Shown: one piece after another, positions 17,396 to 27,857 of the stretch
Numbering within the stretch: the stretch's first letter is position 1
Layout: each line of letters opens with the position of its first letter
Origin: Deltaproteobacteria bacterium
GTDB lineage: Bacteria > Desulfobacterota > Desulfobacteria > Desulfobacterales > Desulfatibacillaceae
Direction of reading: 5' to 3'
DNA length: 64,000 nucleotides
Assembly (NCBI GenBank): GCA_016235345.1
Contig: JACRLG010000023.1
Coordinates: 124,001 to 188,000 of the forward strand
Translations under genes and position numbers: made by a program
The notes under the pieces: model-generated
Databases searched by the model: none
The model's input: the letters and a program-made list of their open reading frames with translations, nothing else
Told to the model about the DNA's origin: nothing

Positions 17396-18723
17396 CAGCA
17401 AGCAGGGGATGGGGCGCTTTTTCCATGAAACTGGTTTTCGCCATAATCATGTTTTTGGTTTCGCCCCTCCTTGTCCCTTTTTCCCAGGCCCTTGCCCAGG
17501 CTGATGCCCCGGCTGACCCGGCGCGGTCGATATCGGTCCTGACAGCTGTGGACGCCTGTTCAGACGAGATGTCCCTTTACCGCTCAAAGGCCGGAAACCT
17601 GGCTGGCGCGGCCCATCGGCTGTTTCAGGCGAGCCCGCCCCAGTGGCGGTGGGCCAGCGCCCTGGTCACCCCGGACGGCATGGCCTTTTTCGGCTCCCCG
17701 GCGGAGGCCGCCATGCCCACCACCACGGTGCGCGGGGCCTGCGGCTACAAGACCCTCATGAGAAGGCCGGAGGTGAAGAAGAAGACCGCCACGGTGATTT
17801 TTTTCTCGGCAGGCCCGCGTGACGGCAAAAGGGTATCGGCCCTGTCCTTTTCCGGTTTTCTGGAGGCCCAGCCGGAACTTTTCGCGTACCCGGTGTGGTC
17901 GGCCTACGGGTCGGGCAGGGTGAGGCTTCTGTGGATTTTTTTTCTGGGCAGGGCGGAGCCTGTTGTGGTGGATCACGCGGTTTCGGTTTTCAGGGACTTG
18001 GGCTTCACCCCGGTTTTTCCCCTTCCCCTTTGCGCCAACGATCCCAAGAGCCTTTGGCGGGAGATGGCCGCAAGGGTTCCCAAGGCCTTTCCGGTAAGGC
18101 CCCTGGCCCCGGTTTTCCGGCGCAGAGGCTCCTTTTCGGTCCAGGTGTCCTTCATGGCGCCCGAAACCCTGGTTTTCGACGAGGACAGCCTTTCCCTTAA
18201 GCTTGGCAGGACAGCCGTATCCCCGCCCATGCCGGGGTGGCGCTTCGGCCAGCCCGAACTGAAGGGCCTTTCCCTTAAACAGGGCAGGGTGACGGCGGAC
18301 GTCAGGCTCCCGTACACGGCCCCCTCCTATCTTGCCCTTTTGAGGGACCGGAGCTTGAAGCACAGCGAGGCGGTTTTTTCAGGCGGGTTCAGGCTGAAAT
18401 CCTCGGCAGTGCCCGGCACGGTGGGTCCTGCGGACGATGAGGGGCTTTTGAACGTCTTTCTGGCCAAGACTTTTTCCCAGTCGGCCCTTCTTTCCTTCTC
18501 GCTTCCCTTGACGCTTGGAATCGACTACAGAATCTGGCCCCTGGAGGCCACGGCCCTGATTTTCTGGGCTTTCCTGGTGCTTGCCGCCTGGAGGGAGTTT
18601 TACAAGTCGCCCCCGGACGGGATGACCCTTTACGAGCTGAAAAGGCTCGGACGCTGGTTCATCGCCCTGGGAATCCTTGGCGGCCTCGCCGTGGTCCTCA
18701 TCATCGGCGGGCACTCGCCGTAA
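17392..18723 (+). CDS. Unrecognised exported/membrane protein, last gene of the SEDS/PBP locus
   Basis: 443 residues. A hydrophobic N-terminus (KLVFAIIMFLVSPLLVPFSQALAQA, about 10-34) looks like a signal peptide. A long extracytoplasmic region follows, then two C-terminal membrane spans (about 375-400 and 420-440) with a short charged loop between them. Three cysteines (near 50, 103 and 205) lie in the exported part. No known domain is recognised. The ATG overlaps the stop of the preceding gene. The topology (exported domain anchored by two C-terminal helices) would suit a scaffold or regulator of the neighbouring SEDS/PBP pair, but that is inference from position alone. The following gene converges from the other strand. 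Confidence 0.75.
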   Translation: MTASRGWGAFSMKLVFAIIMFLVSPLLVPFSQALAQADAPADPARSISVLTAVDACSDEMSLYRSKAGNLAGAAHRLFQASPPQWRWASALVTPDGMAFFGSPAEAAMPTTTVRGACGYKTLMRRPEVKKKTATVIFFSAGPRDGKRVSALSFSGFLEAQPELFAYPVWSAYGSGRVRLLWIFFLGRAEPVVVDHAVSVFRDLGFTPVFPLPLCANDPKSLWREMAARVPKAFPVRPLAPVFRRRGSFSVQVSFMAPETLVFDEDSLSLKLGRTAVSPPMPGWRFGQPELKGLSLKQGRVTADVRLPYTAPSYLALLRDRSLKHSEAVFSGGFRLKSSAVPGTVGPADDEGLLNVFLAKTFSQSALLSFSLPLTLGIDYRIWPLEATALIFWAFLVLAAWREFYKSPPDGMTLYELKRLGRWFIALGILGGLAVVLIIGGHSP

Positions 18724-18761
18724 CCTTGGGCTCACCGAAAACCGCCCAGGGCCTGCAGATG

Positions 18762-19706
18762 TCAAATACGTCCAACCTTTTCATATAAAATTACGAGTTG
18801 CGATAAACAATCCAATGCAGAGTCAATAATTTCTTTCACTTCGTCGAAGTTTTTCTTCAGGGGATTTATTTCATTTACTTTCATCATAACTTTAACCGAT
18901 TTTCCAGCCTTTTCTATAGACATCCGATTAGATAAACTACTTCCGTATTTTGTTCTTATTATTTCTATGTCTTCAGCTTTATTAACAAACATCATTTTTA
19001 TTTGCCCGTTACTCAGCTGGTGCGCAAGCTTTACTTCTTTTCGAGGCAATACATTAGGATAAAATTCAATCCAACTACTGCGATCCTGTCTCGGTTTTGG
19101 TTTTTGTATTTTCAGTGCAGAGTAATTCTCATTCGCATACTTACAATAGTCTTTCACAAAAGCTGTAACCAGTTCATTATCTGTAGGCTGATAGCCACGT
19201 CTATTTTTCTGGATTGCTTGTGAAATAATACGCGCTTTATATGCCAATCTATCATCGTTAATTCCTTCCGACGTAAAATAGGAATGAATTTCTTCATAGC
19301 TGATATGACTATCATAACATTCTGTATCTTTAACAGAGACCAAGTATTTTTTTGGTGCTATGATACATGTTTTAAAAGCATTCCATTCTCCTTTTTTAAT
19401 ACCTTCTTCACCACGTAGATGGTAACGTAATCCTTGATCCGGCATTGGTGTTGAATCTATTTTATTCTCAATAAGAATTGCCACATTTAAGCCATTGATG
19501 TCTTCAAAACGAAAAATTAAATCAGATTCTCCAAGATTCGAGATGATTATAGAATGCCATGCTCTAATATATACATTGTATGCTCTTTCACCAAAAATTA
19601 AAGTCGTAAACATTTTACGAAAGTTTTCGCTAACTGAAAGCTCCTCAAGTAAAAGTAAATCAATATCTCTTTCGATCACTGATTCCAGAAAACTCATTTC
19701 AAGCAT
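18762..19706 (-). CDS. PD-(D/E)XK nuclease-superfamily protein, AT-rich, probably acquired
   Basis: 314 residues from the ATG at 19706, chosen because GAGG lies 6 bases upstream; an earlier in-frame ATG at 19733 has no ribosome-binding site. The core SDLIFRFEDINGLNVAILIENKID (about 75-98) has the shape of a PD-(D/E)XK site: an acidic residue, then a hydrophobic strand ending in E-x-K (ENK). The C-terminal 90 residues resemble the appended domain of restriction- or defence-type nucleases of this superfamily. Base composition is far more AT-rich than its neighbours (many AAA/ATT/TTT codons), a sign of horizontal transfer. It stands alone, convergent with the envelope locus. A defence role is plausible; no partner gene is present. 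Confidence 0.7.
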   Translation of the reverse strand: MLEMSFLESVIERDIDLLLLEELSVSENFRKMFTTLIFGERAYNVYIRAWHSIIISNLGESDLIFRFEDINGLNVAILIENKIDSTPMPDQGLRYHLRGEEGIKKGEWNAFKTCIIAPKKYLVSVKDTECYDSHISYEEIHSYFTSEGINDDRLAYKARIISQAIQKNRRGYQPTDNELVTAFVKDYCKYANENYSALKIQKPKPRQDRSSWIEFYPNVLPRKEVKLAHQLSNGQIKMMFVNKAEDIEIIRTKYGSSLSNRMSIEKAGKSVKVMMKVNEINPLKKNFDEVKEIIDSALDCLSQLVILYEKVGRI

Positions 19707-19834
19707 GTTGTGCCTCACACATTTATAACTCATACTATTTTATGCACAAAACTTCTTTTGTCCTGACCCACGCTACGAACAGCCACTTATGATATTGTAC
19801 TTCTCTTTATCCCCCCTTCAATTCCGGCTGGGAA

Positions 19835-19958
19835 CAGGGGAGCTGAGGGCGATGATATGCAAGGAAGGCGAGCGGCGCGGGGAGGAATAGTACACAAGGT
19901 ACATGACGCCCCGCCCGCCCCCTGCCTGACACAGCAGATCGCGCCCTCAGTTCCCCTG
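19835..19958 (-). repeat. Nested-palindrome repeat, copy B
   Basis: Outer arms CAGGGGAGCTGAGGGCG (19835-19851) and CGCCCTCAGTTCCCCTG (19942-19958) pair at 16 of 17 positions. The core is GTAC-ACAAG-GTAC (19890-19902), flanked by GATATGCAAGGAAGG and CTGACACAGCAGATCGCG. The right arm contains the last codons and the stop of the activator gene at 19947. On the minus strand it reads TGTGTCA first, the same sense as that gene. Confidence 0.85.
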
Positions 19959-20738
19959 TTTGCGGAGGGCTATGACGGCCGCGCCTAGTGCCCCCATGAA
20001 CTGGGGGTCCATGCCAAGGTTCACGATGTCAACCCTAAGGACCTTTTCCAGGGCCTTCACCAGCCCCTTGTTCTTGGAGCAGCCGCCGGTTACCGTCACC
20101 TTGGGGCGGATTCCCACGCGCCGGGCTAACGTAAAGACGCGCTTGGCCACCGAAAGCTGGACGCCCGCGGCTATGTCTGCTGGCGGATGGCGCTTGTAGA
20201 GGAGGCTGACCAGTTCCGATTCGGCGAAGACGGTGCACTGGCTGGTGACGGGAACCACCTTCTTGGCCTTCAAGCTGAGCTCCGAGAACTGGTCCAGGGT
20301 AACGTCGAAGGTGCGCACCACGGCCTCGTAGAACCGGCCCGTTCCGGCGGCGCACTTGTCGTTCATGGCGAATTCCAGCACGCTTCCGTCGTCGTTCAAG
20401 GCTATGGCCTTAACGTCCTGGCCGCCGATGTCCACTATGGTGCGCACTCCTGGGTCCATGTAATGCGCGCCTACGGCGTGGCAGGTGATTTCCGAGACGT
20501 TCTCGTTGGCGAAGGGCACCTCGTTTCTGCCGTAGCCCGTGCCCACGAGGTAGGATATATCCCGGACGTCCAGGCCCTCCACCTGGCCCGCCGCCATTTC
20601 AAGCACTTCCCGGCCCGTTTCGATGGGGTCGATCTTGCTTCTTATGAGGGCGCTAGCAACCACCTTGCCCGATGCGTTCAGAATCACGGCCTTGCCGGTG
20701 GTGGAGCCTAAATCGCAACCTGCAAAATATTTCGGCAT
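19947..20738 (-). CDS. 2-hydroxyacyl-CoA dehydratase activator-type ATPase (BadF/BadG/HgdC family)
   Basis: 263 residues from the ATG at 20738, preceded by AGGTG; a longer frame from 20753 lacks a good site. It is an ASKHA-fold ATPase: phosphate-binding GCDLGSTTGK (7-16), second phosphate loop IVDIGGQDVK (101-110), adenosine motif TVTGGCSKN. Cys129 (NDKCAAGTG) and Cys168 (SQCTVF) are the ligands that bridge one [4Fe-4S] cluster between two subunits in HgdC. Such proteins use ATP hydrolysis to push a low-potential electron into a PF06050-type reductase or dehydratase, here the two subunits encoded upstream. A single activator gene suggests a homodimer (HgdC type) rather than the BcrA/BcrD heterodimer. 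Its last codons lie within a repeat arm. Confidence 0.9.
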   Translation of the reverse strand: MPKYFAGCDLGSTTGKAVILNASGKVVASALIRSKIDPIETGREVLEMAAGQVEGLDVRDISYLVGTGYGRNEVPFANENVSEITCHAVGAHYMDPGVRTIVDIGGQDVKAIALNDDGSVLEFAMNDKCAAGTGRFYEAVVRTFDVTLDQFSELSLKAKKVVPVTSQCTVFAESELVSLLYKRHPPADIAAGVQLSVAKRVFTLARRVGIRPKVTVTGGCSKNKGLVKALEKVLRVDIVNLGMDPQFMGALGAAVIALRKQGN

Positions 20739-20761
20739 AGTACACCTTTCCATAATTATTG

Positions 20762-20880
20762 GCCTGTCTAAAAAACGCGAATTGCTGTGTCATGCTTCAA
20801 AGCCAATTCCGCCACGTACTTTTAGTACGCTTGCTCATTGGCTTTTCGCACTCCTTGCACTTCATCGTTTTTATCCAGGC
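20762..20880 (+). repeat. Nested-palindrome repeat, copy D
   Basis: Outer arms GCCTGTCTAAAAAACG and CGTTTTTATCCAGGC, inner arms AAAGCCAAT/ATTGGCTTT (perfect), core GTAC-TTTTA-GTAC (20816-20828). It is the only copy reading opposite to its neighbouring genes, and it sits 24 bases before the activator start. A second match to the outer arm, GACAGGC at 20898-20904, could also pair with GCCTGTC at 20762. Confidence 0.85.
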
Positions 20881-21004
20881 TTCGTATCCAGGCGTTCGAC
20901 AGGCTGATTATGGCGGGGCCTGGTTCCGGTAAAGCCCCGTGTTTTTATGTCGGTCCGGTTTATCCCAACTGGGAAAAATTTGCAAAAACAGCCTTCGGGT
21001 CGGC

Positions 21005-22426
21005 CTATTTGCTTGGCTCGGCCTTGATGACGGTTTCCATGAAGCCTTCGGCCTGCTTGCGGATTTCGGCGGGGGAGACCACCCGCGTGTCCGAAAGGTC
21101 GTACTGAATGATGAGAAGCGGGATTCCGCGCTCCCTGCACTTTTCCCGGAACATGCCATTCAGGGCCATGGTGTTCTTGCAGCCCATGTGCCCGGCCATC
21201 CAGATCATGTCCAGGTTGAAGCGTTCGTAGAGATCGAAGAGGTCCGTAAAGAAGTTGGTCTGGGGGCCCCTGGTGTGCCGGGCCATGGGGCCCTGCATGA
21301 TGATTCGGGAAAGGCCCTCCATTATGGTCTGGGGGCTTTTCGTATCGATGTAGGGGTGGCGGTTGTACGAGATCATGTCCATGAGGGTGACGACCCCGTA
21401 GCGCTGCTCGGCCCAGGCGATGAGCTCCGGGTAGACCAGGGTGGGCGGGTTCCACAGGGCGGCCCGGAAGCGCTCGTTGTGAAGCGCGCCGCCCTCTGCC
21501 CGTATGCGTTTGGCCATGTCCACCATGGTTTTCATGTATTCGGTGCAGGCGGGCCTCCCCGGCATGGCCACCATGAAGATCATGTGCCCCAGGTACAGGG
21601 CCTCGCCCGCCAGGGGCGCGGGTTTTTCCCGGATGAGGTCCCATAGCTCCATCTGGTATTCCACCGAGCGGTTGCGTTCGTCGCAGATTTCCTTCAGGCG
21701 GTCCCAGTCCATGCGGCCCGGAGTGTTGGCCTCCAGCCACTTTACGGCCCGGAAAAGCTCGTCGGCGAAGTACTTCGTGCTTCGCTCGTCGTAGAAGTTG
21801 TAGGGAACGTCCAGGCGGAAGGTGGGGACGTTGAGTTCCCGCTCAAGGACGGTGTAGCAGCTCATGCCGCCGTCGCAGGGCATGTTGGACGTGAGAATGG
21901 CGGCGGGCCTCGGCATTTCTCCCTTCAAGGCAAGGCCCATGGTGGCCTTGGGAAGGCTGCATATGTCGGGAGGGGTCCCGGCGTTTTCCGAGACGTCTAT
22001 GTAGCGCTCGGCGAAATCCGAGCGGATGAGCGGCCCCATGATGCCCAAAAGCTCGGCCATCCAGGGATTCAAGCCCATTGCGTAGATTATTTCGGGCGGA
22101 ACCAGGTCCTCGTGCATGACGGTGTATTCGGGCCGGGTGAAGACCCCCTCAAGGGTCTCGGTTATGGCCTTCACCACCCTTGAAAGGGCCATTGCGCTCG
22201 CCTGGCGGTAGAGGCCCTCGCGTCCCTTGGTGGACATGTCGAAGAGGGTGCCGCAGTCCAGAAGAACCTTGAGCCAGGGCTTGGACCTCAAATGCCCCAG
22301 CATGGTGAGCGGCCCAACCCTCAATCCCATGTTCGCTATGTGGCCGTATGCCTCAGCCTTATAATATAGCGTGCGGGCCTGCTCCATGGGGCTGACCCTT
22401 GCGCCCTTGAGATCGTATATGCTCAT
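21005..22426 (-). CDS. 2-hydroxyacyl-CoA dehydratase / benzoyl-CoA reductase family subunit (larger)
   Basis: 473 residues from the ATG at 22426, preceded by AGGAAAAGG; frames extending to 22519 run into the repeat. It fits the PF06050 fold: a first half with MPCDGGMSCYTVLEREL then VPTFRLDVPYN, where the family places cluster-ligand Cys and the 'ldvP' strand. A second half follows with GHMGCKNTMAL then RGIPLLIIQYDLSD and a final amphipathic helix. The family includes dehydratase, BcrB/C-type benzoyl-CoA reductase and double-cubane cluster subunits that receive electrons from the ATP-driven activator. The smaller partner is transcribed just before it and the activator just after. The substrate cannot be told from sequence. 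Confidence 0.85.
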   Translation of the reverse strand: MSIYDLKGARVSPMEQARTLYYKAEAYGHIANMGLRVGPLTMLGHLRSKPWLKVLLDCGTLFDMSTKGREGLYRQASAMALSRVVKAITETLEGVFTRPEYTVMHEDLVPPEIIYAMGLNPWMAELLGIMGPLIRSDFAERYIDVSENAGTPPDICSLPKATMGLALKGEMPRPAAILTSNMPCDGGMSCYTVLERELNVPTFRLDVPYNFYDERSTKYFADELFRAVKWLEANTPGRMDWDRLKEICDERNRSVEYQMELWDLIREKPAPLAGEALYLGHMIFMVAMPGRPACTEYMKTMVDMAKRIRAEGGALHNERFRAALWNPPTLVYPELIAWAEQRYGVVTLMDMISYNRHPYIDTKSPQTIMEGLSRIIMQGPMARHTRGPQTNFFTDLFDLYERFNLDMIWMAGHMGCKNTMALNGMFREKCRERGIPLLIIQYDLSDTRVVSPAEIRKQAEGFMETVIKAEPSK

Positions 22427-22489
22427 GACCTTTTCCTGTATCCCGCTTCGGGTTTCATCCCCAATTAAAATTCTTTTAAGGCCAGCGCA

Positions 22490-22617
22490 GACAGGCTGAT
22501 CAAAAACGATGAAATGCAAGGAAGAGGAAAGCGGGCGGGGAGGAATAGTACTTGCCGTACATGACGACCCGCCCGCTTTGCTCTGACACAGCAGTTCGCG
22601 TTTTTGGACAGCCTGTC
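22490..22617 (-). repeat. Nested-palindrome repeat, copy C
   Basis: Outer arms GACAGGCTGATCAAAAACG and CGTTTTTGGACAGCCTGTC pair at 17 of 19 positions. The inner arms AAAGCGGGCGGG/CCCGCCCGCTTT are perfect over 12 bases. The core is GTAC-TTGCC-GTAC (22548-22560). The right arm runs into the stop codon of the gene ending at 22616. On the minus strand it has the same sense as that gene. Confidence 0.88.
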
Positions 22618-23749
22618 ACTTGCCCATGCTTTCCATAAAGGCCTGGACTCTGGTCTGCAGTTGCCCCTCGCTTCCCAGTGAATATTCCCGCTCCAGGCGC
22701 AGAACCGGTATTTTGGCCTTTCTGAGGGCGTTGATCATGGGGCTCGCCTCAACGCCCCAGGTGTCGCAGAACTTCATGGTTTCCAGCACCACGCCGTCAA
22801 CCCGGAACTCTTTTGCCGCCGCGATGATCTCCTCGACCCTGGTGTCGAACTCCTCCATCATGCGGGGGCAGCTTATGTTGGAGAGGCTGCGCCGGGCAAG
22901 GACCGTGAGGGGGTCGCCTTCGTCGTCTATGGGGGCAAGGGCCGGGATGGAGCCTGTACAGGTGCGGTCCCCAACCACGAGCGCCCCGGTGGACTCGATC
23001 ACCCTTATGTAGTGCGGATCGTCGCAATGGCTTCCGGCCATGAGGAGGCGCGCCCGGTAGTCGTCTATGCCGGGGGCGTTCCGGGCTGTTTCGTAGAAAA
23101 CCCGCAGATGGGGGATGATGAGGTCCGTGGGCGACGAGGAGGCTGCGGCGATCAGGGCCTGGAACATGGCCCCGGTGAGCGGCGGGTGGTCGCGCTTCCT
23201 CAAATCCGAAATGTCGCGCATGAGGGCGAGATATTCGTTGTGGGCGTCTATGGCGCGGGACAGGGCCGCGTCGTCGGTGACCACGTTGAACTTGTCGGCG
23301 AGCTTTTCCGCCAGCATGGAAAGCTCTTCGCGCATCCACTGGACAGCCGCCTCGCTCCTCTTGTGGGGGACGTCCAGGATATGAATGAAATCCGGGTGTT
23401 CCAGGTAGTCCAGGTTGTCGTACAGGCGGCGCATGTGATCGCAGCTTGCGGTGAAGACCCAGCCGTTGATGCTGGAAAAGGTGCCTTCCAGCACGAACTC
23501 CAGGATGCTTCTTACCGTGGAGCATATGACGTTTGAAAGGTAGGTGTCGGCCATGGGCGTGCCGGAAACACCGGGGGCGCGCACCCTTACGCCGAAAAGG
23601 CCCTCCACGTTCAGCAAGGGTTCGGGAACGAATGAGCAGGTATAGGCTATGGCCTTGCGGTCGGCCTCCTGGGCCTTGTCCACCAGGGGGCTTATGGGCG
23701 AGTCGACGATGTCGTTGATCAGGCGTGGAAGGCTCACGGGCTGCTTCAT
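22616..23749 (-). CDS. 2-hydroxyacyl-CoA dehydratase / benzoyl-CoA reductase family subunit (smaller)
   Basis: 377 residues, the size of BcrC/HgdB-type subunits. Canonical PF06050 blocks are visible: TASCDHMRRLYDNL (C103) then ILDVPHKRSEAAVQWMREEL, and near the C-terminus KFCDTWG then KIPVLRLEREY and QLQTRVQAFME. Additional Cys are at C38, C76 and GDRTCTG. The SCD and KFCD cysteines are the positions that bind the [4Fe-4S] or double-cubane cluster in the family. GAGGAAA precedes ATG. It is third in a five-gene minus-strand operon after the ACS-like and CooC-like genes and would pair with the larger subunit downstream. Alternatives are a benzoyl-CoA-reductase-like enzyme or a double-cubane cluster protein. 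Confidence 0.87.
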   Translation of the reverse strand: MKQPVSLPRLINDIVDSPISPLVDKAQEADRKAIAYTCSFVPEPLLNVEGLFGVRVRAPGVSGTPMADTYLSNVICSTVRSILEFVLEGTFSSINGWVFTASCDHMRRLYDNLDYLEHPDFIHILDVPHKRSEAAVQWMREELSMLAEKLADKFNVVTDDAALSRAIDAHNEYLALMRDISDLRKRDHPPLTGAMFQALIAAASSSPTDLIIPHLRVFYETARNAPGIDDYRARLLMAGSHCDDPHYIRVIESTGALVVGDRTCTGSIPALAPIDDEGDPLTVLARRSLSNISCPRMMEEFDTRVEEIIAAAKEFRVDGVVLETMKFCDTWGVEASPMINALRKAKIPVLRLEREYSLGSEGQLQTRVQAFMESMGK

Positions 23750-23812
23750 GGTTTCCTCGTTTTCATGCCTTGATGATTTTTGATATCCACCGATTTCATC
23801 GCATTTTTTAGC

Positions 23813-24553
23813 TCAGGGGGCCAGTTTCAGGGCAATTTTCCGCGCGGCCTCAAGGGCCGGGTTGTCCGGGGGCAGTTCCCACAGGGGGCGTCCCCGGCGG
23901 TCGAAGTCCCTCACCTCTCCGTCTTCGGGGATAAGCCCAAGGATTTCCACGTTTTCGGGGAGGTCGAGGCCCTGGGCATCCGGGGCGCGGTTGACCGCCA
24001 CCGCCAGCTTTTCGGGCCCCACCATCTGAAGGATGATATTTATGGTGTCCCGGCTCCGGCTCGATCCGTCGGAAACCGCGATCACCTTCGTCACCCTTCT
24101 TGTGACCTGCCTGCTTATCTGCTCAAGGCCCGCCTCCGCGTCTATGAGAACGAAGGAAAAGGGCGTGACCAGAAGGTCTATTGCTTCGCGCAAAAGGGTG
24201 TTGGCCGGGCAGAAGCAGCCCTTTTCGTCCATGCGGCCCATTGCCAGAAGGGCGTAGCCGTCCCGCTCCAGAAGGGCTTCCATGACGAGATAATCCAGGT
24301 CGCGGGCCAGGCTTTCCTTCTGTTTGGGGTCGCCGCTCCGGGCCGCCCTTATCATGGCCTCGCGGGCCCCGGCCAGGGTGGTTTTCACCGTCTGGCCAGT
24401 GGCCGAAACCAGGCCGCCAGCAGGGTCGGCGTCTATGAGAAGAAGGGGCTTAACTTCCAAGTCCAGGAGAGCGCGGCCCAGCATGGCGCAGAAGGCGGTC
24501 TTGCCCACGCCGCCCTTGCCGCAGACCGAGATGATGGGCTTTTCCTCAGCCAT
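23813..24553 (-). CDS. CooC/MinD-like P-loop ATPase
   Basis: 246 residues from the ATG at 24553 (AAAGGA upstream; the longer frame from 24589 runs into a repeat remnant). It has a deviant Walker A, GKGGVGKT (about 11-18), followed by LLIDADPAGG and the CooC-type blocks GCFCPANTLLR and LIDAEAGLEQISR. CooC proteins use ATP to mature the nickel site of CO dehydrogenase or acetyl-CoA synthase, and CFCP resembles their metal-binding Cys pair. It lies between a gene for an ACS-like protein and the dehydratase-type subunits, so it probably acts in metallocentre insertion or activation for this locus. A general MinD/ParA ATPase is the fallback reading. Confidence 0.83.
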   Translation of the reverse strand: MAEEKPIISVCGKGGVGKTAFCAMLGRALLDLEVKPLLLIDADPAGGLVSATGQTVKTTLAGAREAMIRAARSGDPKQKESLARDLDYLVMEALLERDGYALLAMGRMDEKGCFCPANTLLREAIDLLVTPFSFVLIDAEAGLEQISRQVTRRVTKVIAVSDGSSRSRDTINIILQMVGPEKLAVAVNRAPDAQGLDLPENVEILGLIPEDGEVRDFDRRGRPLWELPPDNPALEAARKIALKLAP

Positions 24554-24570
24554 TATGGTTCCTTTACGAC

Positions 24571-24597
24571 CGTCAAAAAACGCGAACACAGGTGTCG
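24571..24597 (+). repeat. Possible fragment of the nested-palindrome repeat
   Basis: CGTCAAAAAACGCGAACACA then GGTGTCG resembles the left part of copy D (GTCTAAAAAACGCGAATTGC then TGTGTCA) without the core or right half. It lies in the short gap between the CooC-like and ACS-like genes. Confidence 0.4.
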
Positions 24598-24658
24598 TTT
24601 ACGGGCATTATCCGGGCGTATATCCCGGCGGCAAAGTCCGGCCCATGAAACGGGCGCG

Positions 24659-25450
24659 CTATCTTTTCGATTCCCGGCGGGCGATCACCACGTCGCGCAG
24701 GGTGTCGCAGACCGGCTTTTCCTCGCAGGTTTCGCAGTTGAGCTCGGTGCATTCCACCGTGCCGTCCAGTCCCAGGACCAGTTTCTTGTGCTGGCCGGAA
24801 AAGATTTTCGACTCCACGGATATGGGGCCAAGCTCCTCCACCGCCTCGCGGCTTCGGGTGACGAAGATGGTCTCCACGGCCAGCACGCCCGGAAAATCGC
24901 GGGCAAGGGAGGCGTTCATGGCCGAGCCCACCGAGAAAAGGTCGAGCCCTGCGGCCCGGCCCTTCTTGCTCATCCGCACCCAGAGGCGTCCGGGAACCGA
25001 GCGCACCATGTAGCCCGGAAGCCTGTGCATGAGGTACTGGGCGTTTTCCAGGGAAAAGGGGTCGGGGATGTTTAGGGGGTCCACCGCGACCACTATAACC
25101 TGGGCGAAGGACGGGCGTTCGTCCTGCCTCATGGCGGAAACGTCCGGGCCGACCACCGTCACCCGTCCGTTTTCCACGAGGGACGGGTCGAAGGTGGTGA
25201 GGATCACCGCAAGGCTTGCCTGGCTGGGGTGGCCCAGCTCCACGAAAACGTCCTCGGACAGGATGACCTCCGGCCTGCCCTTGCCCTCTTCCGCGAAACC
25301 GAACCTTTTTACAAGCTCGCCCGGCGGAACGGACCTACGGCTGACGGAGTCGCCCTTGTGTTGCCCAAGCCACTCCTTAAGCCCCGCAATGAGGGGGGCC
25401 ATGTCAGTGGGCGAGGCGTCAACAGGCTTTGGGGGGTTGTTTTCGGTCAC
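24659..25450 (-). CDS. Acetyl-CoA synthase/CODH beta-subunit-like protein with C-terminal four-Cys motif
   Basis: 263 residues. The middle (about 65-205: FVELGHPSQAS, VTVVGPDVS, SFAQVIVVAVDPLNIPDPF, RLPGYMVRSVPGRLWVRMSKK) reads like the N-terminal domain of the ACS/CdhC beta subunit. The domain that carries the nickel A-cluster is absent. Instead the protein ends with C234-x4-C239-x2-C242-x5-C248, a possible [4Fe-4S]-binding set. It is first in the five-gene operon, with its own promoter about 95 bases upstream. With the CooC-like ATPase and PF06050 reductase subunits it suggests a redox or metal-centre system rather than carbon fixation. The family assignment is by resemblance and the function is unknown. 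Confidence 0.68.
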   Translation of the reverse strand: MTENNPPKPVDASPTDMAPLIAGLKEWLGQHKGDSVSRRSVPPGELVKRFGFAEEGKGRPEVILSEDVFVELGHPSQASLAVILTTFDPSLVENGRVTVVGPDVSAMRQDERPSFAQVIVVAVDPLNIPDPFSLENAQYLMHRLPGYMVRSVPGRLWVRMSKKGRAAGLDLFSVGSAMNASLARDFPGVLAVETIFVTRSREAVEELGPISVESKIFSGQHKKLVLGLDGTVECTELNCETCEEKPVCDTLRDVVIARRESKR

Positions 25451-25544
25451 GTTTTTTATAATGAGCGTTCGGATTATTGGGGGACCAGGGAAACGGAGAC
25501 CTCAATTATCTCCCAAAAACTCCCGGTATTTGACTATTGTTTTC

Positions 25545-25573
25545 ATCATAACCCAGAACGCTTGTTCGGTCAA
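25545..25573 (-). promoter_or_regulatory. Sigma-70 promoter of the ACS-like/CooC/dehydratase operon
   Basis: Reading the minus strand: TTGACC (25573-25568), exactly 17 bases, TATGAT (25550-25545). The -35 is part of TTGACCGAAC, close to the ACCGAA half-site seen upstream of fadN, so the two operons might share a regulator. The start codon is about 95 bases downstream. Confidence 0.65.
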
Positions 25574-25989
25574 CGGATTCTTGCGTCATAATTTGGACTT
25601 GAACGGCAGCCTCGAAAATTTTTTTACGATAGTAAAAGTATGGAATCAAGTATTATTTTTTGACCGGCCCGTTTCTTTCCCGATTCGGCAAAAATCGCTC
25701 AAGACCCATTATATTGTGTGAATGATATAGATGACTTCCATGCAATGTATGCAGTCTGCGTGCGGGGGCGGTTCTCCCGGCCACGGTTTTTTCCGTTTCC
25801 CGCCCCGGAAGGCCGGGTTTGAAGCAGAAAAAAATTTTTCGGGCAAAGGGGATTTTTTGACGCGACGCGTCTTTCCGGGGGAGCGGCGCAGAGGCGTCCC
25901 CTCCGGCGGACTCCGGGATGGGGAGTCCACGCGGAAACACCGGGCATCCCGATACGATTCATTTGCGTCCGCCCCGGCTGACGCGGTTT

Positions 25990-26024
25990 GGCGCTTGACA
26001 AAAGCGCCCTCGTGATGAAATGAT
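25990..26024 (+). promoter_or_regulatory. Promoter with palindrome over the -35 box
   Basis: TTGACA (25995-26000), 18 bases, AATGAT (26019-26024). The -35 is embedded in GGCGCTT-GACAA-AAGCGCC (25990-26008), a perfect 7-base-arm inverted repeat that could be an operator. The nearest gene on this strand starts 400 bases away, with the MITE-like element in between. Confidence 0.5.
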
Positions 26025-26126
26025 AGCGGATGTGTCGGTTTCAAATCCGGTCATTTCCCTTGCAAACAAACACAAACAAAAAGCCAAAAATTCCGGTACG
26101 GCGGCGTCTTGTCGGCCCCGGCCTTA

Positions 26127-26249
26127 GAGTTTGTCCGTAAATAAGGTTGTAATACCGGGATTGCGGATTCGCCCAACCAGCAAGGAGCGCAACAGCGCTG
26201 GGTGGGATGAAGCCGCAATCGAATGTAAAGATTATTTACGGACACGCTC
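26127..26249. mobile_element. MITE-like element with terminal inverted repeats and TTA duplication
   Basis: A 123-base non-coding element. The ends GAGTTTGTCCGTAAATAA and TTATTTACGGACACGCTC are inverted repeats matching at 16 of 18 positions, flanked on both sides by TTA (26124-26126, 26250-26252), a likely target duplication. Inside, ATTGCGG/CCGCAAT and CCCAACCAGC/GCTGGGTGGG also pair, so the whole element can fold. It has no open frame. The parent transposase is not in the window. The rest of the gap from 25451 to 26424 holds only the two promoters. Confidence 0.7.
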
Positions 26250-26424
26250 TTAGTCAAAATGGCGGAAACATGCGGTTACCCCGTCTTTTTTTCACGCGTC
26301 AAAAAAATTTCAACGCGCCTCTTCCCGCTCTCGATAGGCCAGCGCCACAGGAAACGGACCGGAAAATCCTTCCGGCGAGCCTTGCCGCGCATGGCCTGAA
26401 AAAAACACCATTACGGAGCAAACC

Positions 26425-26757
26425 ATGAAAAAACTGATTGCGCTTATCGTTGTACTGGCTTTTTTTGCCGCGCCCCTTGCGGCCTTTGCCGAAGACGAGA
26501 TGGTCATCATGGAGGAGGGCAAGCTGCCCTACGAGCTGAACACCTGGATGGTCCGCACCATATGCGCCAACGGCTACGTCTTTTTCGTGAGCTACGTTCT
26601 GGCGCGCCAGTCGGGGGCCGGAATCCACGCCATGCAGGTGATGGAGGAAAAGAACGGCGTCTCTGTGCCCATGAAATGCGACGCCAAAAAATACAAGAAG
26701 ATACCCGCAGTGCAGCCGCCCGCCGCTCCTGCAGCGACCCCCGGCGCGTCCAACTGA
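26425..26757 (+). CDS. Small secreted protein of unknown function
   Basis: 110 residues. A signal peptide (KKLIALIVVLAFFAAPLAAFA, cleavage about residue 22) is followed by a mature domain of about 65 residues with two cysteines (TICANGY and MKCDAKK), which could form a disulfide. It ends in a Pro/Ala tail. ACGGAG lies 7 bases before ATG. I do not recognise the family. A perfect 11-base hairpin sits just after the stop and separates it from the glycosyltransferase cluster downstream. Confidence 0.7.
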   Translation: MKKLIALIVVLAFFAAPLAAFAEDEMVIMEEGKLPYELNTWMVRTICANGYVFFVSYVLARQSGAGIHAMQVMEEKNGVSVPMKCDAKKYKKIPAVQPPAAPAATPGASN

Positions 26758-26776
26758 CGCCGGTCGAGGCTTGAAA

Positions 26777-26808
26777 TGCGCCCCTGCTGGAAATCCTGCA
26801 GGGGCGCA
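26777..26808 (+). terminator. Hairpin after the small secreted protein gene
   Basis: TGCGCCCCTGC and GCAGGGGCGCA form a perfect 11-base stem with a 10-base loop, 20 bases past the stop. No T-tract follows, so it may be a Rho-assisted stop, an RNA-stability hairpin or an attenuator for the next gene. Confidence 0.5.
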
Positions 26809-26897
26809 ATCGGCCATATGCCGCAAGGGGTCTGATTCCCCTGCTCGTCCATGCAAGCCGGAAGCCTCGCCGGACGATCCCGGAAAAGGTTACATTC

Positions 26898-27857
26898 ATG
26901 GCGGCGTCCCTCGATCTGTCGGTGGTGGTCCCGGTTTTCAACGAAGCCGACAACATTGACGGCCTTTACGGCCAGATCAAGCCGGTTCTGGAAAGCCTTG
27001 GGAAAACCAGCGAGATCATATTCATAAACGACGGCTCCACTGACGGATCGGGCCCGCGCCTGGACGCCCTGTGCGCGGACCCCTGCGTAAAGGTGATCCA
27101 CTTCCGCCGCAACTTCGGCCAGTCCGCCGCCATGATGGCCGGTTTCGACCACGCCAAGGGCGAGGTGGTCATTTCCCTGGACGCCGACCTCCAGAACGAC
27201 CCGGCGGACATCCCCCTGATCCTGGAAAAGCTCGACCAGGGCTACACCGTGGTTTCGGGCTGGCGCAAGGACCGCAAGGACAGGACCCTCACCCGCAAGG
27301 TTCCCAGTTTCGTGGCCAACAGGCTGATTTCGGCGCTTTCGGGGGTGCCCCTGCACGACTACGGCTGCACCCTGAAGGGCTACCGCCGCCAGTTCATCGA
27401 AAACCTGGGCATTTACGGCGAGATGCACCGTTTCCTGCCGGTTTACGCCAAGTGGCAGGGGGCGAAAATCGCGGAAATTCCGGTTTCCCACAGGCCCCGC
27501 GTGGCGGGAAAGTCCAAGTACGGCCTGGAGCGCACCTTCAAGGTTCTTTTGGACCTCCTTCTCATCAAGTTCTACGACGGCTACGCCCAAAAGCCCATGT
27601 ACGCCTTTGGTTTCGTGGGCTTTTCCAGCTTTCTGGTCTCCCTGGCCTGTTTTTGCGCCATGATCTATTTCAAGTTCTGGGGCGGCAAGAGCTTCATCCA
27701 GACGCCCCTGCCGCTTCTGGCTGTCCAGTTTTTCCTCATCGGCATAATCTGCTTTCTTCTTGGAATCACCACCGACCTTGTAATGCGCACCTATTTCGAG
27801 TCCCAGAACCGGCGTCCCTACATGGTGAGCCATACCAGAAACATGGAAGGCCCATAG
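26898..27857 (+). CDS. Family 2 glycosyltransferase, dolichol-phosphate-mannose-synthase type (GtrB/ArnC-like)
   Basis: 319 residues. The GT-A fold begins with LSVVVPVFNEADNI (about 7-20). INDGSTDGS and the metal-binding DAD (95-97 in SLDADLQNDP) follow. After the catalytic domain come two membrane helices (about 237-260 and 273-295), the arrangement of GtrB/ArnC enzymes. Such enzymes transfer a sugar from a nucleotide sugar to undecaprenyl phosphate at the inner membrane, supplying lipid-linked sugars to integral-membrane glycosyltransferases. A TMTC-like membrane glycosyltransferase of exactly that kind is encoded five genes later, so the two probably act in sequence. asnB follows with a 3-base gap. 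Confidence 0.88.
   Translation: MAASLDLSVVVPVFNEADNIDGLYGQIKPVLESLGKTSEIIFINDGSTDGSGPRLDALCADPCVKVIHFRRNFGQSAAMMAGFDHAKGEVVISLDADLQNDPADIPLILEKLDQGYTVVSGWRKDRKDRTLTRKVPSFVANRLISALSGVPLHDYGCTLKGYRRQFIENLGIYGEMHRFLPVYAKWQGAKIAEIPVSHRPRVAGKSKYGLERTFKVLLDLLLIKFYDGYAQKPMYAFGFVGFSSFLVSLACFCAMIYFKFWGGKSFIQTPLPLLAVQFFLIGIICFLLGITTDLVMRTYFESQNRRPYMVSHTRNMEGP

Follow-up and report, generated by a model that had tools for sequence, protein, structure and literature searches.

A 64,000-nucleotide stretch of the genome of a Deltaproteobacteria bacterium of sulfate-reducer type (GenBank assembly GCA_016235345.1, contig JACRLG010000023.1, positions 124,001 to 188,000; referred to as the window) was found to carry, on the minus strand at 25450-19947, a five-gene set that may well encode a double-cubane-type reductase driven by ATP, along with a metal-handling pair dedicated to it. 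In gene order, the set consists of ACSL, a free-standing relative of the middle domain of acetyl-CoA synthase (ACS), a CooC-type ATPase, two PF06050 subunits (subunit 1 and subunit 2) and an activase; CooC and ACSL form the metal-handling pair. An initial annotation had placed five open reading frames (ORFs) with these domains at the same positions, two PF06050 subunits and one activator ATPase among them, and was borne out by the ORF check, by Pfam (CdhC PF03598, a CbiA/ParA-type ATPase, HGD-D PF06050 twice with E 1e-84 and 7.7e-61, and BcrAD_BadFG) and by TIGR00241, which lay over its cut-off. Directly observed are the gene content (Table 1), the synteny, the conserved metal-binding residues, the separate tree positions of CooC and of subunit 1 and the independence from detected carbon monoxide dehydrogenase (CODH)/ACS.

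The accessible parts of the literature discuss CooC-type ATPases in the role of maturases for CODH/ACS, and mention the ACS middle domain solely within ACS. That both are retained in one conserved set where CODH/ACS is undetected, tied to an ATP-driven double-cubane enzyme, points to a second job for them. Should a heterometal take part, a family performing some of biology's lowest-potential reductions, such as the Birch-type reduction of benzoyl-CoA, would gain a new metal centre. No description of the combination of ACSL, CooC and PF06050 proteins was found in the accessible text of the open-licence literature, a scope that most subscription papers fall outside: it is not described in the parts available of PMC13365417, PMC7306483 and PMC10418091, the words 'dehydratase', 'benzoyl' and 'BadF' do not occur in those of the CODH neighbourhood study PMC13056359, nor 'CooC' in those of the naphthalene review PMC12016498.

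Table 1 Genes of the five-gene set in the window
Feature	Coordinates	Strand	Evidence
ACSL, free-standing ACS middle domain with C-terminal Cys tail, 263 aa	24659..25450	-	PF03598, ACS profile, AlphaFold (AF2) fold
CooC-type P-loop ATPase, 258 aa	23813..24589	-	GKGGVGKT, CxC (C125/C127), best PDB match 3kje
PF06050 subunit 1 (HGDa), 377 aa	22616..23749	-	six double-cubane-type cysteines
PF06050 subunit 2 (HGDb), 473 aa from ATG 22426	21005..22426	-	catalytic-type [4Fe-4S] cysteines C156/C184/C416
Activase, 268 aa, BadF/BcrA/HgdC type ASKHA ATPase	19947..20753	-	TIGR00241, BcrAD_BadFG

Linkage of the gene set in other genomes

ACSL was searched for in 395 genomes of the phylum, 263 of which matched, mostly with full-length ACS. 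Small ORFs of the ACSL kind accounted for at least 38 matches in at least 30 genomes, a lower bound since the matches extend only to E of about 1e-7. The plasmids searched held no ACSL, and no ACSL fusion was established; one match lay in a 571-aa frame (L084) that looks like a read-through upstream of ACSL. For the synteny search, 40 loci were compared, namely 37 ACSL matches outside the window's own genome and four further loci, with the duplicate L051 = L045 dropped and the window not counted. Within about 8 kb, same-strand PF06050 genes were present at 31 of the 40 loci and a same-strand CooC gene at 26, where it lay directly downstream of ACSL in 24 cases, directly upstream in one and 1.6 kb downstream in one; the gene set is therefore conserved, across several families, the 40 loci not being independent because many are close relatives. 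Of the nine loci where PF06050 is lacking, five have the contig edge next to the gene (L047, L048, L054, L062, L066), L069 and L071 are partly cut, and at L072 and L074 no PF06050 gene was present within about 8 kb of ACSL. At L055 (G031:C1:1299735-1300807) subunit 1 is split into two ORFs, the five-gene set being otherwise intact.

Seen from the reductase, window-type subunit 2 (E <= 1e-60) was present in 16 of the 395 genomes, all 16 of which also have ACSL, and 33 genomes had a window-type subunit 1 scoring about 193 bits or above, at least 26 of them with ACSL.

Fourteen ACSL genomes of the families f40 and f42, 94-100% complete (G030, G032, G069, G130, G131, G158, G183, G207, G251, G272, G292, G311, G347, G348), contained no full-length ACS, PF03598 matches being confined to ORFs of 245-326 aa and lacking in G292, and no Ni-CODH over the 478-bit cut-off, the best match reaching 30.8 bits. 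In G116 (88% complete) neither full-length ACS nor Ni-CODH was detected; G333 has both ACS and CODH, G083 has fragments at contig edges, and G367 (f42) has an ACS-like match and no small ACSL among the matches listed. The inventories of the 14 genomes indicate that the client of the CooC/ACSL set is not CODH/ACS. Since the set persists in relatives in which none of the usual nickel enzymes was detected, it probably serves a new kind of metal-assisted reductase.

The ATPase is CooC-like, as had been proposed. Its best match in the Protein Data Bank (PDB) is CooC1 of C. hydrogenoformans (ChCooC1; E 2e-9), it has the deviant Walker A motif and the CxC that mark CooC/AcsF nickel ATPases, and the CxC, of metal-binding type, was retained in 25/25 linked homologues. 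According to the accessible text of PMC6006190, these two cysteines of ChCooC1 bind either Zn or Ni where the monomers of the dimer meet. P-loop and CxC are thus shared with the CooC nickel ATPases of CODH/ACS, but the window type belongs to a separate, PF06050-linked branch (support 95/95) that is also found where CODH was undetected. In the tree of 47 rows, all 27 PF06050/ACSL-linked CooCs, the window's included, fell on one side of this branch, together with four other rows from G085, G077, G001 and G041, all of which have ACSL elsewhere; the 16 rows on the other side included all three verified CODH/ACS-linked ones. Phylogenetically, the linked CooCs thus form a branch apart from the CODH/ACS-linked ones. 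A linked-side CooC was present in 15 of the 16 ACSL genomes of a 118-genome sample, in G041 by way of a row that is long and placed with weak support; the remaining ACSL genome, G049 (82% complete), had no CooC at E <= 1e-25.

ACSL and the PF06050 pair

The Pfam match of ACSL to CdhC (PF03598) was over the cut-off at E 2.3e-11 and covered residues 61-198 only; with a profile of 36 ACSL sequences, the middle domain of ACS structures was matched at E 4.6e-23. The AlphaFold model (pLDDT 87.9, with a low-scoring stretch at 221-240 in the tail) matched the ACS entries 3git_B (Z 21.1, 180 residues, root-mean-square deviation (rmsd) 2.7) and 1oao_D (Z 21.0, 177 residues, rmsd 2.6); ACS was the sole strong fold match, the next unrelated entry reaching Z 2.8. 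The VIA list for ACSL likewise held no relative besides ACS, absence from that list excluding nothing. ACSL corresponds to the second (middle) domain of ACS, residues ~316-500 of the bacterial protein. The label 'CdhC/ACS-N' of the initial annotation was accordingly right about the relation to ACS/CdhC and needed correction as to the domain, which is the middle domain of ACS and the N-terminal part of archaeal CdhC.

Among the 36 aligned sequences the residues E71, L72, G73, P75, G101, G146, M148, W157, R159, C239, C242 and C248 were invariant. The cysteine tail reads C234-x4-C239-x2-C242-x5-C248, exactly as first annotated, with C234 confined to nearer relatives. In the profile alignment with ACS, C234, C239 and C248 fell on the first three A-cluster cysteines, and the spacing C239-x8-C248 is that of ACS; the tail by itself did not match the A-cluster cubane region significantly (P 0.44; P 0.03 with 15 more residues). 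The tail may be a remnant of the A-cluster cubane site. Unlike ACS, which has about 740 aa, ACSL lacks the N-terminal domain, has four cysteines in all and ends at residue 263 with no counterpart of the Cys-Gly-Cys that binds the distal nickel (Nid), which agrees with the earlier remark that an A-cluster domain is missing.

Subunit 1 carries C38, C76, C103, C264, C294 and C328 at all six positions that ligate the [8Fe-9S] cluster of BzdN in the class I benzoyl-CoA reductase BzdNO (PDB 8s02). The available text of PMC11971306 gives these ligands as C36/73/100/263/293/327, and those of the catalytic [4Fe-4S] cluster of BzdO as C95/128/380. The six cysteines were kept in 12/12 near and 25/25 far linked homologues (C328 in 24, plus one gap), and the three catalytic-type cysteines of subunit 2 in the window and 14/14 near homologues. 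The pair thus fits a low-potential enzyme of the double-cubane or benzoyl-CoA reductase (BCR) kind, which was the original suggestion. Like BzdNO, it combines six and three cysteines with an activase of the BcrAD/BadFG type; the window operon differs in having one activase and in the addition of CooC and ACSL, and no benzoate pathway genes were seen beside it. The double-cubane cluster protein DCCP with its reductase DCCP-R (PDB 6eno, 7yyl) is nearest to subunit 1 by sequence (114 bits), has all six cluster cysteines and shares the ATP-driven activase; here, however, the enzyme would be a heteromeric pair whose second subunit has three cysteines only, again with CooC and ACSL added.

All named NCBIfam models stayed far under their cut-offs for the two subunits. 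The pair thus fell short of the cut-offs for the Bzd type (TIGR03190, 80.6 vs 453.8 bits; TIGR03191, 39.4 vs 448.6 bits) and for the 2-hydroxyacyl-CoA dehydratase HadBC (NF052456, 101 vs 700 bits; NF052455, 51.2 vs 750 bits), and subunit 1 of that for a true DCCP (NF040772, 180.8 vs 350 bits; separate tree branch), while a true DCCP elsewhere in the window's genome (L104) reached 442.8 bits with NF040772 as positive control. The activase passed TIGR00241 (acyl-CoA dehydratase activase) with 241.4 vs 125.4 bits. In a tree of 48 rows, two candidate rows with too short a matched stretch being left out, 38 linked subunit 1 rows (window included) and two paralogues from the window's own genome (C13, C20) formed one branch of 40 rows (93/95) that excluded the PDB references DCCP, BzdN, HadC and MbdN, with DCCP and L104 grouping together outside it (100/99). 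Subunit 1 hence falls in none of these characterised clades, a placement that the initial annotation had named as counter-evidence; the deeper order is unsure because several reference branches are long.

Subunit 2 was placed by model scores and fold. Its structure model (pLDDT 84.9, with a helical N-terminal extension of ~70 residues) tied between HadB (Z 33.3, 382 residues, rmsd 2.6) and BzdO (Z 32.9, 394 residues, rmsd 2.8), followed by a second BzdO entry (Z 32.7), MbdO (30.7) and DCCP (~30), and as a prediction does not tell dehydratase from reductase.

Proposed mechanism and alternative explanations

For a reductase with a metal-handling pair, we infer the following mechanism, including the types of cluster, the use of nickel, the transfer order and a net reduction. 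The activase would use ATP hydrolysis to drive electrons of low potential into subunit 1; the [8Fe-9S] double cubane there would store them and feed the substrate-binding [4Fe-4S] cluster of subunit 2, as in BzdNO and DCCP. CooC would use the CxC site of its dimer to load ACSL with a thiophilic metal, most likely Ni. ACSL would then either join the reductase as a third component with a small (Ni-)Fe-S centre or pass the metal on to it. ACSL is the likeliest client of CooC because of the position of the CooC gene directly downstream of it in 24 of the 26 loci. By family, a CoA ester is the likeliest substrate. The narrower proposal of a first nickel-dependent branch within the BCR/2-hydroxyacyl-CoA dehydratase/double-cubane family, with CooC inserting Ni into a reduced A-cluster-like centre of ACSL that serves as third catalytic or redox component of the ATP-driven reductase, outside any CODH/ACS context, is put forward tentatively and is on balance unlikely. 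A partial parallel is the operon of the putative isoprene reductase isr of Acetobacterium wieringae, where genes of the nickel chaperones HypA/HypB lie by an anaerobic reductase that, in the accessible text, is not known as a Ni enzyme (PMC10134865); it differs in its chaperones and in a reductase family unrelated to that of the window.

Several findings weigh against a metal-handling reductase. The clusters of BzdNO form in E. coli without CooC (10.9 Fe; PMC11971306, as far as accessible), so that a double cubane alone needs no CooC; CooC and ACSL thus point to an extra metal centre or a metal relay. CooC of R. rubrum does not bind Ni tightly, according to the available part of PMC6006190. 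No CooC gene was nearby at 14 of the 40 ACSL loci, several of them cut, and at three f21 loci (L069, L071, L072) ACSL stands beside acyl-CoA dehydrogenase and/or TRAP solute-binding genes, named by eye and by clustering, with neither CooC nor PF06050 near it. Conversely, PF06050 and CooC occur together in G075 (L127), a genome lacking a small ACSL among the matches listed. At the looser subunit 1 threshold of E <= 1e-40, 85 genomes matched, at least 28 of them with ACSL; by these counts ACSL is closely linked with the window's own subfamily and loosely with the family at large.

ACSL might instead be an electron carrier to the activase, its tail holding a plain [4Fe-4S] cluster, with CooC as a MinD-type gating or assembly ATPase and no nickel, which we regard as unlikely, if credible. 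Such a role would suit the three invariant tail cysteines, the position of ACSL, which directly follows or overlaps the activase gene in f40/f42 (e.g. L064, L065, L068, L075), and the recurrence of flavodoxin-ferredoxin and 2x[4Fe-4S] proteins in the same islands. However, these islands thereby already contain ferredoxin-type genes, and the retention of CxC, the metal site of ChCooC1, in 25/25 linked CooCs speaks against it.

An improbable alternative makes ACSL a docking subunit for CoA or acyl-CoA, helping a reductase of otherwise BCR-like type to receive its CoA-ester substrate. In C. autoethanogenum the middle domain of ACS is in contact with CoA (accessible part of PMC12289521), PF06050 enzymes work on CoA esters, and genes for an acyl-CoA dehydrogenase, a CoA ligase and thiolase-like proteins (the latter two named by eye) flank some ACSL loci; yet subunits of the fold of subunits 1 and 2 themselves bind CoA, and CooC and the invariant cysteine tail would be left unexplained.

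That the genes encode an ordinary 2-hydroxyacyl-CoA dehydratase with its activator is highly improbable. One activase with two PF06050 subunits is the arrangement of HadIBC, and the fold of subunit 2 ties with HadB, but two of the six cysteines of subunit 1 are missing in HadC, from which subunit 1 also groups apart, and the NF052456 score lies far below its cut-off. Next to negligible is the chance that CooC and ACSL are Wood-Ljungdahl maturation genes lying by accident beside an ordinary PF06050 enzyme: the window's own genome does have a full ACS, two CODH matches over the cut-off and a second CooC, but a chance neighbourhood was rejected on the conserved linkage (31/40 and 26/40), the separate branch of the linked CooCs and the 14 genomes in which CODH/ACS was undetected.

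Operon boundaries and related loci

The gaps between the genes are, in gene order, 69, 63, 96 and 251 bases. The third value presumes that subunit 2 begins at the upstream TTG at 22519, which would make it 504 aa long; with the ATG at 22426 this gap measures 189 bases. Promoter and terminator scans gave results near the shuffled level (5 vs 2.1 and 8 vs 7.6), with no terminator signal dividing the operon, and no Rfam element reached the gathering threshold in 18000-27000. The neighbouring ORF 19733-18762, flanked by GC-rich genes, is AT-rich (40.5% GC in the block 19000-19999 vs 57.5-62.1% across the operon) and had no Pfam match; it was left out of the operon, and what we take, by eye, to be a possible PD-(D/E)XK nuclease-like motif was noted in it. 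No conserved pathway gene that would name the substrate stands beside the window operon.

The f40/f42 islands are larger, comprising TetR genes, two proteins without a Pfam match, a second subunit 1 (subunit 1'), one or two further subunits 2 (subunit 2') and two activases, together with ACSL, CooC, in some a flavodoxin-ferredoxin protein, the window-type pair, a 2x[4Fe-4S] protein and an activase. In the window's genome the primed set is located at C20 (L088), and orphan paralogues of subunit 2 occur at C7 (57% identity) and C24 (50%); one subunit 1 might, to judge by these paralogues, serve several subunits 2. The region of the former (L101, G000:C7:107158-108489) also encodes an enoyl-CoA hydratase and an alpha/beta hydrolase. 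The latter (L102, G000:C24:212463-213842) and L107 (G275:C27) are orphan window-type subunits 2 beside a START/polyketide-cyclase-domain protein, with no subunit 1 within the stretch examined. The neighbours at these three loci do not name a substrate.

Genes of GMC-type oxidoreductases recur near linked PF06050 genes (L058, L059, L085, L087), the assignment resting on a three-member neighbour cluster of which one member was scanned and, for L087, on sequence likeness only. A protein of ~400-500 aa, without a Pfam match in the member scanned (L064), was found upstream of subunit 1' in 13 loci (L064, L065, L068, L070, L075-L079, L081, L082, L084, L085), and a protein of ~210 aa recurs in 7 loci.

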